64,000 nt of DNA from Leifsonia sp. AG29 (lineage in GTDB: Bacteria > Actinomycetota > Actinomycetes > Actinomycetales > Microbacteriaceae): contig NZ_VMSF01000001.1 of assembly GCF_009765225.1 (NCBI RefSeq), positions 2,976,001-3,040,000 on the forward strand, written 5' to 3'. The notes under the pieces are model-generated. The model did no database searches, was not told the origin of the DNA, and worked only from the letters and a program-made list of their open reading frames with translations. Every line of letters starts with the position of its first letter. Positions within the stretch are counted from its first letter, which is position 1. A program made the position numbers and the translations under genes. Positions 3,271-47,891 of the stretch are shown piece after piece.

Positions 3271-4641
3271 TCACTCCATGGTGTCGAGGATGTCCACGAG
3301 GTCCTCGAACGTGGTCAGCGGGTTCAGCACCGCGAAGCGCGTGTTCGGCCGGCCCGCGTGCGAGCTCGGGGTGACGAACGCGCGCTGCTCCTCCAGGAGG
3401 CGCGCGGACCAGATCGAGTAGTCCTCCTTGCTCCATCCCTCCCGCTCGAACACGACGACCGACAGCTGCGGCCGGCGCACGAGCCGGAACCCGTCGCGGC
3501 GCTCGATCTCCTCCGCGATGCGCTCGGCCAGCTGGATGGAGGCGGTCACCGCGTCCCGATACGCGGCCGCGCCGTAGGTGGCGAGCGAGAACCAGAACGG
3601 GAGCCCGCGGGCACGCCGCGTGAGGTGGGCCGCGTAGTCGGAGGGACTCCACTCGGTCGTGTCCGTCAGCGTATCGAGGTACTCGGCATGCTGTGTGTGG
3701 GCCCGGCGGCCGGCCTCGGGGTCGCGATAGATCAGAGCGCAGGCGTCGAACGGCGCGAAGAGCCACTTGTGCGGGTCGACGATGACGGAGTCGGCCCGCT
3801 CGACGCCGGCGAAGCGGTCCCGCGCCAGCGGCGACAGCATCCCGGCCAGGCCGTAGGCGCCGTCGACGTGCAGCCAGAAGTCGAACTCGTCCTTGAGGGC
3901 GGCGATGGAGGCGATGTCGTCCACGATCCCGAAGTTGGTCGAGCCTCCCGTCGCGACGACCGCGAACACGGCCGAGCCGAACTCCTCCAGGGCGGCCCGG
4001 ACCGCCTCCCCGCCGAGCACTCCGGACTCGCCGGGCTGGACCGACACGACGTCCACGTCCATGACGCGAGCGGCCGACGCGATCGACGAGTGCGCCTCCG
4101 CGCTGCACACGATGACCCAGCGGCCGTCGAAGTCCGGGCGCAGCGCACGCGCGGAGTCGCGCGCGGCGACGAGAGCCGAGAGGTTGCCGAGCGTGCCTCC
4201 CTGGACGAACACGCCGCCCGAGGTCGCCGGCAGCCCGAACTCGGAGGCCAGCCACGCCAGCACCTGGTTCTCGGCGTAGACGGCGCCCGACCCCTCCAGC
4301 CAGGAGCCGCCGTAGACGGCGCTGGCCGACACGACCAGATCGAACGCGGTCGCGGCCTTGGTCGGAGCGGTGGGGATGAACGACAGGTAGCGGGGGTGGT
4401 CCGTCGTGATGCACGCGGGCGCCAGGACGTGCTCGAAGAGGGCCAGCGCCCGCTCGGCGCCCATCCCCTTCTCGGAGACGGTCTGGCCGGCGAGGCGGCG
4501 GAGCTCGTACTCGGGCAGCGGCTTGTCGAGCGGGGTGTCCTCGCTCAGGATGCGGCGGCGCGAGTAGTCGAGCACGAGGTCGACGAGCTCGCGGGTCTCA
4601 CCGGTCACCGCGTGCATGCGGCGGGCGTTCGTGTCAGTCAT
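3271..4641 (-). CDS. PLP-dependent group II decarboxylase
   Basis: A 456-residue fold-type I decarboxylase (aromatic amino acid, glutamate, aspartate or diaminobutyrate decarboxylase family). The PLP lysine is K292 in DPHKW; H184 in the AEAHSS stretch should stack on the cofactor, and D260 in HVDGAYG should bind the pyridine nitrogen. Length is normal for the family. The ATG at 4641 follows GGAGGACCC, an excellent ribosome site. The frame remains open upstream through a repeat array, but that is not coding. Substrate cannot be assigned. It is divergent from a methyltransferase across the array. Confidence 0.9.
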   Translation of the reverse strand: MTDTNARRMHAVTGETRELVDLVLDYSRRRILSEDTPLDKPLPEYELRRLAGQTVSEKGMGAERALALFEHVLAPACITTDHPRYLSFIPTAPTKAATAFDLVVSASAVYGGSWLEGSGAVYAENQVLAWLASEFGLPATSGGVFVQGGTLGNLSALVAARDSARALRPDFDGRWVIVCSAEAHSSIASAARVMDVDVVSVQPGESGVLGGEAVRAALEEFGSAVFAVVATGGSTNFGIVDDIASIAALKDEFDFWLHVDGAYGLAGMLSPLARDRFAGVERADSVIVDPHKWLFAPFDACALIYRDPEAGRRAHTQHAEYLDTLTDTTEWSPSDYAAHLTRRARGLPFWFSLATYGAAAYRDAVTASIQLAERIAEEIERRDGFRLVRRPQLSVVVFEREGWSKEDYSIWSARLLEEQRAFVTPSSHAGRPNTRFAVLNPLTTFEDLVDILDTME

Positions 4642-4762: not shown

Positions 4763-4799
<37 letters not shown>

Positions 4800-4816: not shown

Positions 4817-5131
4817 CACATTCGTGCCGAATGTGCGGCATCCCGGCCTTGGTGGACACATTCGTGCCGAATGTGGCGGCGGGGTGGCCGCATTCGGCAC
4901 GAATGTCGCCAGCGCGTGGCGCGGAAGCCGGGCGAGGCGTGGGAGGCGTCCCACGGATTCGGCACGAATGTGGGGCCTGCCGCCCCCGGCGGCAACATTC
5001 GGCACGAATGTGGGGCGTGGCGGCCCCGGCGGCCACATTCGGCACGAATGTGGGGCCTGCCGCCCCCGGCGACAACATTCGGCACGAATGTGGGGCCTGG
5101 CGGCCCCGGCGGCAACATTCGGCACGAATGT
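4817..5131 (+). repeat. Array 1: eight copies of the ATTCG-GCA-CGAAT dyad
   Basis: Eight short inverted repeats centred on a 3-base asymmetric core. Copies with core TGC: 4817-4835 and 4857-4875. Copies with core GCA: 4891-4905, 4957-4969, 4995-5011, 5034-5052, 5075-5091 and 5115-5131. The best are 19-bp CACATTCGGCACGAATGTG, with 8-bp arms. The last five copies are exactly 40 bp apart, and their spacers are near-identical G/C-rich sequences. The array fills most of the 574-bp gap between the decarboxylase and methyltransferase genes. No gene is visible in it. Confidence 0.93.
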
Positions 5132-5202: not shown

Positions 5203-5208
5203 TAGCGT
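5203..5208 (+). promoter_or_regulatory. -10 box of a leaderless methyltransferase gene
   Basis: TAGCGT ends seven bases before the chosen GTG at 5216, so the transcript should begin at or next to the start codon. There is no Shine-Dalgarno sequence. Inferred from spacing only. Confidence 0.55.
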
Positions 5209-5215
5209 GAGCCGC

Positions 5216-6019
5216 GTGAGCCGGACGACGGACGTGTGGAGCGACGGGGCCCCTTACGACGCCTTCATGGGCGACTGGAGCCGGCTCGTGGCCCCGCGCT
5301 TCATCGACTGGCTTGCGCTCCCTCCCTCGCTCCGGTGGCTGGACGCGGGCTGCGGCACCGGCGCCCTCACCGAGACGATCCTCAGCAGCACTTCGCCGTC
5401 GCTCGTGATCGGCGTGGACCCGTCGCCCGGCTTCATCGCCTCGGCCGACGCCCGGCTGGGCGACCGCGCCCGGTTCGAGGTGGGCGCCGCGGAGCGCCTC
5501 CCTCTCGCGGCGGACTCGGTCGACGCGACCGTGTCGGGACTCGTGCTCAACTTCGTGCCCGATGCCTCCGTGGCGCTGGCCGAGTTCGAGCGAGTGACGG
5601 TCCCCGGCGGAACGATCGGCGCCTACGTCTGGGACTATGCGGGACGCATGGACCTGATCCGCGACTTCTGGGAGATCGCCCGCGAACTCGACCCGGATGC
5701 GGACGCGGAGGACGAGTCGACCCGATTCGGCTACGAGTCGCCCGAGTCCCTGTGGGCCGCCTTCGAGACCTCGCAGCTGGTGGACGTCGACGCCACCGGC
5801 TTCGAGGTCAGCCGCCGGTACGCCGGGTTCGAGGAGTTCTGGAACCCGTTCCTGGGGGGTCAGGGACCCGCGCCTTCCTACGTCGCGCGGCTCACCGAGC
5901 CGGCGCGTGCCCGACTTCGCGCCGGCCTCCGGGAAGCGCTCCCCTTCGCACCCGACGGCACGCTCGAGCTCCGAGCTCGAGCCTGGGCGGTGCGCGGAAC
6001 CGTTCCTCCCGGAAGCTAG
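5216..6019 (+). CDS. Class I SAM-dependent methyltransferase
   Basis: A 267-residue Rossmann-fold methyltransferase. Motif I is WLDAGCGTGA at residues 41-50, with the acidic ribose-binding residue in IGVDPS and the later motif GLVLNFVPD. It resembles UbiE/type 11 methyltransferases, but the substrate is unknown. The frame is open upstream through the repeat array. The GTG at 5216 was chosen because it follows a TAGCGT box at leaderless spacing; the GTG at 5207 is a possible alternative. It is followed 53 bp later by a kinase-like gene with its own similar -10 box. Confidence 0.85.
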   Translation: MSRTTDVWSDGAPYDAFMGDWSRLVAPRFIDWLALPPSLRWLDAGCGTGALTETILSSTSPSLVIGVDPSPGFIASADARLGDRARFEVGAAERLPLAADSVDATVSGLVLNFVPDASVALAEFERVTVPGGTIGAYVWDYAGRMDLIRDFWEIARELDPDADAEDESTRFGYESPESLWAAFETSQLVDVDATGFEVSRRYAGFEEFWNPFLGGQGPAPSYVARLTEPARARLRAGLREALPFAPDGTLELRARAWAVRGTVPPGS

Positions 6020-6994: not shown

Positions 6995-9076
6995 TCAGAC
7001 CTGCGAGAGCGTGAGCACGACCTCGTCGTTCGGTGCGGCCGGCACGAAGTCGGCCTCGATCTCGGCGCGGCCGAGCAGGTCGCTCATGCGGCGCTGGCGG
7101 TGCTTCGGGATGAGGGTCACGACGGTGCCCTGCTTGCCGGCACGACCCGTGCGGCCCGAGCGGTGCAGGTAGGTCTTGTACTCGTCGGGCGCGTCGGCCT
7201 GGATGACCAGGTCGATGTCGTCGACGTGGATGCCGCGGGCGGCGACGTCGGTGGCGACGAGCACGTTGACCCGGCCGCTCGTGAGCTTCTCGAGGTTGCG
7301 CGTGCGGCGCGACTGGTTGAGGTCGCCGTGGAGGCTGACGGCGGGGATGCCCGCGTCCTCCAGCTGGTCGGCGAGCATCTCGGCGAAGGCGCGGGTGCGG
7401 GCGAAGACCAGGGTCTTGCCGTCGCGGTCGGCGAGCTGCTCGATGATCGCGCCCTTGTCGCGGTGCTCGATGACGAGCACGCGGTGGTCGATCGTGGAGG
7501 ACGCCTGGTCCTCCCCGGCGACCTCGTGCACGGCCGGGTCGACGAGGAACTCGTTGACCAGCTGGGCGACGCCCGAGTCGAGCGTGGCGGAGAAGAGCAG
7601 CTTCTGGCCGCCCTCGGCCGTGTGGCGGAGGATGCGCTGCACCGGCTCCAGGAAGCCGAGGTCGCACATGTGGTCGGCCTCGTCGAGGACGGTGATCTGC
7701 ACCTCGCTGAGGTCGAGGCGGCCCTGCTCCACGAGGTCCTCGATGCGGCCCGGGGTGCCGATCACGATGTCGACGCCGCGCTGCAGCGCGCCCACCTGAC
7801 GACCCTGCGGCACGCCGCCGTAGATCTGGGTGGTGAAGAGGCCGACGCTGCGGGCGATCGGCTGGACGGTGCGGTCGATCTGCAGGGCGAGCTCGCGGGT
7901 CGGCGCAAGGATCAGCGCGCGCGGCGAGCGGCCGAGCTGGCGCTTGCCGCCGGACTTGCCGGACTCCGCCCACAGCTGCATGAGCCGCTCGGCGAGCGGC
8001 GCGCCGAAGGCGATCGTCTTGCCGGAGCCGGTGCGGCCGCGGCCGAGCACGTCCTTGCCGGCGAGCACGTCCGGGAGGGTCGCCGCCTGGATGGGGAACG
8101 GCTTCTCCGCTCCGAGGTCGGCGAGCGCGCGGACGATGTTGCCGCCGAGGCCCAGGTCCGCGAAGGTCACACCGTCGACGTCCTCGGCCTGGATGGCCTC
8201 GGCCTCGAGGCGCTCGAGCACGACGTCGTCGGTCGGCACGAACGCCGGCTTCTCGTCGCGCGACGGGTAGAACGAGGAGTCGCGACGGGGACGCTCGGCG
8301 CGGTCGTCGAACGAGCGGCGCGGCCGGTCGTCGCGGTCGCCGTAGGAGCGGCGGGGGCGGTCGTCGTACTCGCGGCGCGGACGCTCGGCCCGGTCGTCGC
8401 GGTCGAAGGAGCGACGCGGACGGTCGTCGTACTCGCGGCGCGGGCGCTCGGCCCGGTCGCCGAAGTCGCGACGGGGACGGTCGTCGGAGTCGCGACGCGG
8501 GCGGTCGGCCCGGTCGTCGTACGAGCGCCGGGGACGGTCGTCGTACTCGCGGCGCGGACGCTCGGCCCGGTCGTCACGGTCGAAGGAGCGACGCGGACGG
8601 TCGTCGGCGTCGCGACGCGGACGCTCAGCCCGGTCATCACGGTCGAACGAGCGACGCGGACGCTCAGCGCGGTCGTCGAACGAGCGACGCGGACGCTCGG
8701 CCCGGTCGTCGAACGAGCGACGCGGACGGTCGTCGCGGTCGCCGGAGGAGCGGCGGGGGCGCTCCTCCTGCTCGCGGCGGGGGCGCTCGGTACGGGCGCT
8801 GCGGTCCTCCCACTCGCGCTCGGTGCGGCGGGCGTCCTTGCCGCGGGGCTCCCAGTTCGGGCGCTCGGTGCGGCCACGCGCGGGCGCGCCGTCGCGGCTG
8901 CCGTAGACGGCACGGCCGCGGTCGGCTGCGCCGGCGCGGTTGGCGCGGTCCTCGGCGCTCCAGCGGGCCTTCTTGCCGGAGGCGGCGGGCTCCTCGGCGC
9001 GGTAGCCGCGGTGCTTGGGGCTGCGGCTGCCGGTGGCCGGCTGCGGTCGTCGGTCGTTCTTCTTGTACGGGGGCAT
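6995..9076 (-). CDS. DEAD-box RNA helicase with long Arg/Asp-rich repeat region
   Basis: A 693-residue helicase. The C-terminal two-thirds is a full DEAD-box core: a Q-motif region near 305-330, RTGSGKT at 348-354, PTRELA near 392, DEAD at 465-468, SAT at 496-498 and HRSGRTGRAG near 655. The N-terminal 300 residues are very hydrophilic. From about 105 to 265 they consist of imperfect tandem units of the type DDRPRRSFD or RAERPRRE, a likely disordered RNA-binding tail. Such helicases remodel structured RNA in cold, ribosome assembly or decay. The ATG at 9076 follows AGGAAG. A TTGACA at 9245-9250 on this strand suggests a leader of more than 100 nt. Confidence 0.92.
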   Translation of the reverse strand: MPPYKKNDRRPQPATGSRSPKHRGYRAEEPAASGKKARWSAEDRANRAGAADRGRAVYGSRDGAPARGRTERPNWEPRGKDARRTEREWEDRSARTERPRREQEERPRRSSGDRDDRPRRSFDDRAERPRRSFDDRAERPRRSFDRDDRAERPRRDADDRPRRSFDRDDRAERPRREYDDRPRRSYDDRADRPRRDSDDRPRRDFGDRAERPRREYDDRPRRSFDRDDRAERPRREYDDRPRRSYGDRDDRPRRSFDDRAERPRRDSSFYPSRDEKPAFVPTDDVVLERLEAEAIQAEDVDGVTFADLGLGGNIVRALADLGAEKPFPIQAATLPDVLAGKDVLGRGRTGSGKTIAFGAPLAERLMQLWAESGKSGGKRQLGRSPRALILAPTRELALQIDRTVQPIARSVGLFTTQIYGGVPQGRQVGALQRGVDIVIGTPGRIEDLVEQGRLDLSEVQITVLDEADHMCDLGFLEPVQRILRHTAEGGQKLLFSATLDSGVAQLVNEFLVDPAVHEVAGEDQASSTIDHRVLVIEHRDKGAIIEQLADRDGKTLVFARTRAFAEMLADQLEDAGIPAVSLHGDLNQSRRTRNLEKLTSGRVNVLVATDVAARGIHVDDIDLVIQADAPDEYKTYLHRSGRTGRAGKQGTVVTLIPKHRQRRMSDLLGRAEIEADFVPAAPNDEVVLTLSQV
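8281..8770 (-). repeat. Imperfect tandem repeats inside the helicase gene
   Basis: About 490 bp of degenerate 24-36-bp units encode the DDRPRRS and RAERPRR motifs of the helicase N-terminal region. The unit order is irregular, as expected from repeated unequal recombination. Copy number probably differs between strains. Confidence 0.85.
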
Positions 9077-25738: not shown

Positions 25739-26494
25739 TCAGAGGCCCGACGCGTAGACCCGCAGGGCGTCGCGAACGAACACGGCCCCCTGCTCGCCGC
25801 CATAGTTGGCGGCGAATCGCGGGTCCGCGACGTACATGTCGCCCAGCCCGGTCAGGTAGGCGGGAGCGGGCGCGCCGGTCCCGGAGCCCGGAGTGCCCGG
25901 GATGTCGGCCAGCCACTCGGCGTGGCGACGCGCGAGCGCCTGCGCCTCGGCCGAGTCGGGCGCGATGCCGCTCTTCGCCGCCGCCTGCCAGTCGGCGGCG
26001 AGCCGCTGCTGGCGCTCCTGCCACTCCCGGCGCTCCTCCGGCGACTTGCTGCGCCACCAGCGGTCGGAAGCGGCATACGCCTCCTTGCCCCAGCGCTCCT
26101 CGACCTCGTCCTTGTACTGCGTGTGGTCGAAGCCGTCGAACATCTCCTCCGCCATGATCTCTCCTCCTGTCTGCACGGCGCGGATGGTCGTCTCGACCGA
26201 CGCGATCTGCCGCGCCAGCCGCTCCTGCTCGCCGCGCAGCCACCCGAGGTGGTCGCGGAGGGCGGGCACCGCCTCCTGTCGCTCGTCGAGGACGCGGCCG
26301 ATGGTCGGGAGGGCCAGTCCGAGGTCCCTGAGCAGCAGGATGCGCTGGAGCCGCACGAGGGCGTCGCGATCGTAGAAGCGGTAGCCGTTCGCTCCGATCC
26401 GGGTGGGAGGGAGCAGGCCGATGTCGTCGTAGTGACGCAACGTGCGGCTCGTCGTCCCGGCGATCCGGGCGATCTCCTGGATGGACCAGTCCAT
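25739..26494 (-). CDS. MerR-family regulator with TipAS effector domain
   Basis: A 251-residue TipA-like regulator. The N-terminal MerR winged helix (about 4-72) contains IARIAGTTSRTLRHYDDIGLLPP and NGYRFYD. A coiled-coil helix follows, then a TipAS-type helical domain (about 125-250) with FDGFDHTQYKDEVEERWG and the closing YVADPRFAANYGG. TipA proteins bind thiopeptide or other hydrophobic antibiotics and activate resistance genes, including themselves. The ATG at 26494 follows GGAGG. The promoter upstream has the MerR-type long spacer and a dyad, pointing to self-activation. Confidence 0.9.
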   Translation of the reverse strand: MDWSIQEIARIAGTTSRTLRHYDDIGLLPPTRIGANGYRFYDRDALVRLQRILLLRDLGLALPTIGRVLDERQEAVPALRDHLGWLRGEQERLARQIASVETTIRAVQTGGEIMAEEMFDGFDHTQYKDEVEERWGKEAYAASDRWWRSKSPEERREWQERQQRLAADWQAAAKSGIAPDSAEAQALARRHAEWLADIPGTPGSGTGAPAPAYLTGLGDMYVADPRFAANYGGEQGAVFVRDALRVYASGL

Positions 26495-26594: not shown

Positions 26595-26742
26595 ATTCGT
26601 GCCGAATGTTGCCTCGGGAGGCTCCTAGCCACGGATTCGTGCCGAATCTCGGGGGAAGCCGCGCAGCACCCCCCAGCGCAGCCTCCCGAATTCGTGACGA
26701 ATGCTGCTCAGGGGCGTCACATACTCGAGATTCGTGCCGAAT
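26595..26742 (-). repeat. Array 2: four copies of the ATTCG-core-CGAAT dyad
   Basis: Copies at 26595-26607, 26635-26647, 26690-26702 and 26730-26742, all with the core read as TGC on the plus strand, except the third, which has TGA. Spacings between starts are 40, 55 and 40 bp. They occupy most of the 322-bp gap between the TipA-like regulator and the transporter gene; the remaining 75 bp before 26817 are GC-rich with no visible gene. Confidence 0.9.
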
Positions 26743-47520: not shown

Positions 47521-47891
47521 ATTCGGCACGAATCTCGCTCCCACGGCGCCCGTCACCCACATTCGGCACGAATCTCGCTCCCACGGCGCCCGTCGCCGAC
47601 ATTCGGCACGAATCTCGCTCCCACGGCGCCCGTCGCCGACATTCGGCACGAATCTCGGCGGCGCCCACACCTCGGGCGGGCCACATTCGGCACGAATGTG
47701 CCCGAGCCAGCCCGCTTCGGCGACATTCAGCACGAATGTGGGGAGCGCGCCTCCCCTGCCCCGCGCTCAGAGTGCGCCCTCAGAGATTCGGCACGAATGT
47801 GGCACAGAGGGCGCCCGTGACCCACATTCAGCACGAATCTCGAAGGCGCGGCGCGCCGGCCCGGCGCTGCCCGGGCACATTCGGCACGAAT
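47521..47891 (+). repeat. Array 3: nine copies of the ATTCG-GCA-CGAAT dyad
   Basis: Starts at 47521, 47561, 47601, 47641, 47685, 47725, 47786, 47826 and 47879, all with core GCA on the plus strand. The first four are exactly 40 bp apart with a shared spacer (CTCGCTCCCACGGCGCCCGT). Copies at 47725 and 47826 have ATTCA in the left arm. The array fills the 492-bp gap between the convergent purD and alditol oxidase genes, where no gene is visible. A (CGAAGCG)3 heptamer repeat follows near 47895-47920. Confidence 0.93.

Follow-up and report, generated by a model that had tools for sequence, protein, structure and literature searches.

Dyads repeated in tandem about every 40 bp are known from sopC-type centromere arrays. 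Palindromic elements lying outside genes include the CGTC-type REPs, which, in the species shown in the main text of PMC3733652, are found mostly less than 20 bp from gene 3' ends and mainly as head-to-head dimers. In E. coli, gyrase sites are enriched in BIME-2, and their G/C content is phased at 10 bp, according to the available text of PMC6379681. Here we describe a family of 13-bp dyads in Leifsonia, which came to light as an array in the window, a stretch of 64,000 nucleotides from Leifsonia sp. AG29. We found no description of this family in Leifsonia in the part of the PubMed Central literature covered by CC licences that could be searched; the main text of PMC3733652 does not mention "actinobacteri", and the accessible text of PMC2267715 mentions neither Leifsonia nor "actinobacteri".

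Array 1 and the Leifsonia dyad family

Between window positions 4820 and 5129, the dyad ATTCG-GCA-CGAAT (ATTCGGCACGAAT) occurs eight times, each copy exact. The array and the two genes that flank it are as follows.

3271 to 4641, minus strand: left flanking gene, a pyridoxal-dependent decarboxylase (PF00282), whose 5' end faces the array
4820 to 4832, minus strand: dyad 1, exact ATTCGGCACGAAT when read on the minus strand
4860 to 4872, minus strand: dyad 2, 40 bp from dyad 1
4892 to 4904, plus strand: dyad 3, 32 bp from dyad 2
4957 to 5129, plus strand: dyads 4 to 8 (starts 4957, 4997, 5037, 5077 and 5117), direct repeats exactly 40 bp apart
About 5207 to 6019, plus strand: right flanking gene, a methyltransferase (PF08241), whose 5' end faces the array

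The array reported by a sequence-only reading of the window, with two copies on the minus strand, six on the plus strand and the last five exactly 40 bp apart, was thereby confirmed. Dyads 4 to 8, whose spacers are GC-rich and near-identical, are a tandemly amplified run. The tetranucleotide GCCT is repeated nine times at 4763 to 4798, directly adjoining the array.

Two further arrays in the window belong to the same family.

25739 to 26494, minus strand: MerR regulator gene with a TipAS antibiotic-recognition domain, adjoining array 2
26595 to 26742, minus strand: array 2, four dyads (starts 26595, 26635, 26690 and 26730), spacing 40-55-40
47521 to 47891, plus strand: array 3, nine dyads, spacing 40-40-40-44-40-61-40-53

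Array 2 lies between two minus-strand genes, one for the MerR/TipAS regulator and one for a permease, and its dyad at 26690 has the core TGA when read on the plus strand. Array 3 is situated between convergent genes, the left of which we take to be purD-like, and two of its nine dyads read ATTCAGCACGAAT. Elsewhere in the window, a minus-strand open reading frame at 6995 to 9076, presumably encoding a DEAD-box-like helicase, carries a long N-terminal stretch of Arg/Asp-rich repeats (RDDRAERPRR-like).

In total, the window contains 23 dyad matches at up to two mismatches, compared with 0.69 on average and at most 4 in 100 dinucleotide shuffles. Across the genome from which it comes (3.68 Mb), we found 135 exact copies (67 + 68) and no copy of the reversed control word, in keeping with the earlier claim of a real repeat family. 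The copies form at least 35 clusters, which are scattered along the chromosome contig C1 (first 100 of the 135 copies located). The word is likewise not confined to the window: when the genome and its relatives were searched for the 13-mer, as the sequence-only reading had suggested, the exact word was present in 21 of 28 Leifsonia genomes, in some of them as one or two copies only. A version with a TCA or TGA core was found in 21 of the 28 species. With both cores summed, 22 species had at least ten copies, five had none and one had three. The asymmetric core does give each copy a direction, as had been proposed; the GCA triplet, however, is not fixed in the family, because many species use TCA/TGA in its place.

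Outside the genus, the exact word was found in 19 of 293 sampled family members, in one copy each and never more. Pairs of dyads 40 bp apart were present in nine of ten sampled Leifsonia genomes and in none of 388 other family members, and a sister family with the arms ATTTG/CAAAT, likewise spaced at 40 bp, was present in five of the ten and in none of the 388. Among the matches listed, 78 of the 80 named records that have two dyads at a distance of 40 bp were Leifsonia; of the other two, one is labelled Microbacterium and one Bacteroidia. The record named Microbacterium sp. 18062 (L056) holds one paired element and matches the window's genome (L185) at 88% identity over 832 bp; either a wrong label or transfer could account for it. 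We conclude that the dyads are a genus-specific extragenic site family of Leifsonia.

Register, placement and change in place

The basic unit of the family is two 13-bp dyads exactly 40 bp apart, with the consensus ATT(C/T)G-N3-C(G/A)AAT. Spacing counts from other species' loci are biased, as these loci were mostly picked by the pattern itself; counts free of that bias come from genome-wide word counts (the window's genome and 28 Leifsonia, both cores) and from L. aquatica. In L. aquatica, 46 of 47 neighbour distances of up to 200 bp were exactly 40, and 8 of 100 sites had no neighbour. The 27-bp spacer is variable in sequence, with AT-rich triplets at spacer positions 7-9 and 19-21 that are enriched in all four groups tested, the window's genome included. 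There, these triplets have an AT fraction of 0.43 compared with 0.16 at the other inner positions (permutation maximum 0.32). In the L. aquatica group they are 93% AT, and the AT triplets of the 53-bp unit are centred at 2, 12, 21, 33, 42 and 52. Together, the AT triplets of dyad and spacer produce a beat of about 10 bp.

In the window's genome, pairs are strung into 40-L-40-L-40 arrays. Linker lengths between 42 and 70 bp gather around 44, 55 and 66 bp (n = 50 from 35 clusters, each length taken once per cluster, distances below 42 and above 70 left out), with a best period of 11.2 and an R of 0.74; the highest of 5000 jittered sets reached 0.51. When all 67 non-40 distances are used, the best period is 10.0 (R 0.59). 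Linkers of equal length from different clusters are unrelated in sequence (median identity 0.38, highest 0.61). Four other species, pooled, exhibited a weak linker periodicity (19 distances, best p about 0.018); among the matches listed, linkers elsewhere were 48 in G006, 35 in G007 and 36 in G009. A 40-25/26-40 arrangement, or part of it, was found at 23 loci of G006 and G020, where a hand count by locus gave 16 linkers of 25 bp and 7 of 26 bp; at one locus the pair spacing was 39 bp. The 12-13 base linkers of these units differ by eye, and we did not see the arrangement in the window's genome.

We assessed the placement of 127 distinct clusters of at least two dyads in the fetched loci, which are a part of the clusters of these genomes, relative to tRNA genes and to genes called approximately by a home-made codon-usage caller. 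We found that 64 clusters were convergent, 45 tandem and 7 divergent, with 11 at an edge; the other neighbouring gene pairs of the same loci were convergent, tandem and divergent in 99, 391 and 142 cases (p 8e-21). Single copies would be common inside genes if these were DNA uptake sequences, and none of the 127 clusters lay inside a called gene. From the stop codon to the first dyad, the median distance was 20 bp. Array 1, one of the 7 divergent clusters among the 116 classified, is an amplified copy of the Leifsonia family in an unusual place. At L043, L113, L109, L118, L040 and L031, elements are near tRNA genes, and some placements that would be called divergent from protein genes alone are thus near RNA genes. 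In two species (L176, 2548 to 3970; L045, 792 to 1865), a gene at the same place has arrays on both sides; the product of the L176 gene weakly matches REase_MTES_1575, a restriction-endonuclease-like family (32 bits, below the cut-off of 38.2).

Corresponding gene pairs bear elements in more than one species, and single elements were followed in place. Of 23 flanks prepared, 20 were searched in three genomes (G013, G002 and G017); the three left out were the second flank of L045 and two that adjoin tRNA genes. In G013, 16 of the 20 L. aquatica flanks mapped (all but L032, L034, L039 and the second flank of L031), and the dyad pair was kept at 13 of the 16 mapped loci, with L038 and L035 (right flank not found) and L048 (a one-dyad remnant) dropped from the comparison. 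These 13 loci yielded 14 elements comparable between G001 and G013, two of them in L050a; the second L045 pair and an extra G013 pair at L050b were excluded. We found that the fixed positions ATT-G/C-AAT (16 of the 26 dyad positions per pair) had not changed in a single case (0 of 224), compared with 56 of 378 spacer positions (15%), 9 of 84 core positions and 19 of 56 at arm base 4/10. Arm base 4/10 had changed at all four half-sites in four elements, each time from C to T, at two in one and at one in another; in L044, one of the four, the 27-base spacer remained identical.

Half-sites of one element are also alike across a wider set. Among the flank-fetched loci of G013, G002 and G017, the latter two of which entered this count but not the count of changes, all four half-sites agreed in 24 of 30 elements (shuffled mean 10.7, maximum 17). 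Similarly, G009, G018, G019 and G021 hold 107 ATTCG pairs, 114 ATTTG pairs and 2 mixed pairs; with one further mixed pair in G017, there are 3 across all 28 genomes. Other arm types occur at the orthologous places L271 (G002) and L274 (G017), namely ATGTG/CACAT and ATTTG with CACAT, and a GAC/GTC core is also seen there, which suggests more than two specificity classes. Orthologous loci also include contractions by one 40-bp unit and empty or one-dyad sites, and some dyads of G002 have decayed, for example at L035, L047 and L050b. At the site of an XPB-like helicase gene, some species have the element and others lack it. In a tree of this helicase from 28 species, the six word-poor species fall into two forks (G004, G005, G012 and G014; G003 and G027); because 11 of the 24 inner branches are open and the G026 sequence is partial, the tree is compatible with one gain as well as with several losses. 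Among 84 empty-site rows, nearly all from this one site and compared between distant species, none had a clean insertion boundary.

Proposed protein binding and its alternatives

The fixed register, the invariant bases and the homotypic switching point to protein recognition of DNA. We reasoned that the side-by-side binding of dimers would account for base invariance, dyad symmetry, register, stepped linkers and homotypic switching alike, and for this reason we chose to read the elements as phased arrays of homotypic sites for a protein, with a putative architectural or insulating function at the 3' ends of genes, a proposal drawn from sequence whose chances we consider about even. Each dyad would be a putative site for a dimeric DNA-binding protein, the dimers would sit side by side on the DNA in a fixed helical register, perhaps cooperatively, and a single protein type would occupy all four half-sites of an element. 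Most elements follow closely on the end of a gene, above all in the gap between two convergent genes, where positive supercoils raised by transcription and polymerases running towards each other would be expected to meet; this placement makes an architectural role likely. Such arrays might insulate or roadblock converging transcription, or might position a DNA-wrapping protein or gyrase. The multi-site binding array that the sequence-only reading had considered is thus supported by the phased register, the invariant bases and the homotypic half-site switching, with the binding protein putative. Because the E. coli gyrase sites described in the text available from PMC6379681 are 10-bp phased and enriched in BIME-2, gyrase or a DNA-wrapping partner is one concrete candidate by analogy, although the constancy of the fixed dyad bases seems to exceed what a gyrase site would require. 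A more elaborate proposal, which we regard as possible but doubtful, is a chromatin-like punctuation of the Leifsonia chromosome, in which one or more paralogous dyad-binding proteins, lined up on phased, homotypic modules of four half-sites behind genes, would form sequence-defined insulators or supercoil anchors between converging genes. Their specificities (arm base 4 plus the core triplet) would switch along with the sites from species to species, and even from element to element within a genome.

Several observations argue against protein binding. The strong inverted repeats and complementary spacers of the L. aquatica group can be accounted for by a hairpin model, which predicts them; the concerted arm changes could result from template switching at palindromes, without selection; a genome with several kinds of arm and core would require paralogous proteins or one that tolerates them all; the linker lengths of other species fall outside 44, 55 and 66 bp, and their pooled periodicity is weak; the 11.2 period in the window's genome holds for distances of 42-70 bp; and some dyads of G002 have decayed. 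If transcripts of the inverted pair formed a hairpin that terminates or shields the mRNA of each of the two converging genes, with the arrays as decayed copies, then the short distance between stop codon and dyad (median 20 bp) and the predominance of convergent genes would be explained; the CGTC-type REPs are similarly placed in the main text of PMC3733652. Consistent with such an RNA element, pairs of other species fold strongly (in the L. aquatica group, z -11.0 for L044, at -54.6 kcal/mol, -6.9 for L045 and -5.5 for L032; L072 reached z -4.1), the L. aquatica-group spacers are complementary at 8.33 of 13 positions compared with 6.55 when permuted, and the cores are mutually reverse complementary in 20 of 30 elements. 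Inside single dyads at tandem sites, G.U exceeded A.C by 14 to 5, a lean towards RNA that is just 6:3 when counted by loci, with 3 other mismatches. In the long stems on the sense strand, however, the two were about equally frequent (43:42 across 65 elements at tandem sites, each with 18 or more of 26 pairs), in contrast to 68:8 among the resolved intermediates of Bacillus cereus terminators in the available portion of PMC5381666. Spacer-pair changes were one-sided in 42 cases and two-sided in 5, of which 3 could pair both before and after the change, with no clear excess of compensation, and the fixed dyad bases stay unchanged where other base pairs would serve. Of the two window units folded, both were weak (z -2.6 and -0.9) and one had no stable hairpin, and the spacers of that genome are not self-complementary (5.42 compared with 5.60). 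An intrinsic terminator would have a T-rich tract after a stable hairpin: the pairs of the L. aquatica group have no T-rich tail within 10 bases on either side, where AT content is 2-22% save for one position per side (67-78%). A search of seven sources against Rfam matched only a tRNA and an SRP RNA, neither at an element. The RNA hairpins among the earlier suggestions agree with the placement and with the pairs of other species and are weakened by the flat long-stem ratio and the poor folds in the window; overall, we think an RNA element rather unlikely.

The elements might instead be a mobile or selfish palindrome family of the REP/MITE kind, spread by a transposase, with harmless gaps explaining the placement and template switching the arm changes. 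Species-specific cores and sister families fit this idea, as do the presence or absence of an element at one site in different species and the empty or one-dyad sites at orthologous loci; quasipalindrome template switching, described for E. coli in the accessible text of PMC7202029, may underlie the concerted arm changes. Template switching should homogenise the spacer too, yet spacer changes are mostly one-sided. In addition, the retention of the pair at 13 of 16 loci in G013 indicates little recent movement, the exact spacing and stepped linkers are left unexplained, and, against a viral origin, the exact pair pattern had no matches in the IMG/VR viral contigs. Mobilisation by RAYT is rejected, as PF01797 (RAYT, Y1) was found in none of the 28 Leifsonia genomes in a search for that family alone that recovered it in 5 of 14 controls. 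We consider a mobile family quite unlikely. Finally, a promoter-region operator array for the decarboxylase and methyltransferase genes would suit the position of array 1 between two divergent genes. Divergent placement being the exception, that position is no guide to promoter control for the family, and elsewhere the same dyads lie at 3' ends; the control of these two genes allowed for by the sequence-only reading does not extend to a general role, and we judge an operator very improbable. Together, these results leave the RNA-hairpin and mobile-element readings weaker than recognition at the DNA level.

If proteins do bind the dyads as we propose, then tens to hundreds of sites per genome would mark gene 3' ends in most Leifsonia species, in a register strict in length but free in spacer sequence, and the half-sites of an element would switch in concert at their original location. 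A simple genome would then allow two questions to be tested: by what means bacteria keep converging transcription insulated, and in what way a binding protein that acts across the chromosome evolves its specificity together with its many sites.

Comparison with described systems

A sopC-type array belongs to a single partition locus, whereas the Leifsonia family forms many clusters along the chromosome. A partition array would be expected at one locus near par genes or the origin; instead, we found 135 copies in clusters spread over contig C1, and because of this scatter the recombination or partition element that had also been suggested is unsupported. Like the BIME-2/gyrase sites of E. coli, as far as the available text of PMC6379681 describes them, the Leifsonia elements are intergenic palindromes with a G/C variation phased at about 10 bp, a phasing seen in the units themselves rather than by comparison to a gyrase motif. 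The CGTC-type REPs resemble the family in that no dedicated transposase is reported for them in the main text of PMC3733652 and in their convergent or same-direction placement. The architecture differs: these REPs have stems of 8-9 bp and loops of 4-5 bases (PMC3733652, main text), the Leifsonia dyads a 3-base core and a 40-bp register. With regard to the tag that marks one end of GTAG and CGTC elements, L. aquatica flanks appear similar on both sides by eye. With the GTAG-type, RAYT-associated REP/BIME elements, the Leifsonia family shares short extragenic palindromes, paired units, placement at 3' ends, many copies and species specificity. Unlike REP/BIME, it is accompanied by no Y1 transposase in the 28 genomes, its dyads are symmetric on both sides, and it combines a fixed 40-bp register with the homotypic switching of half-sites in place.
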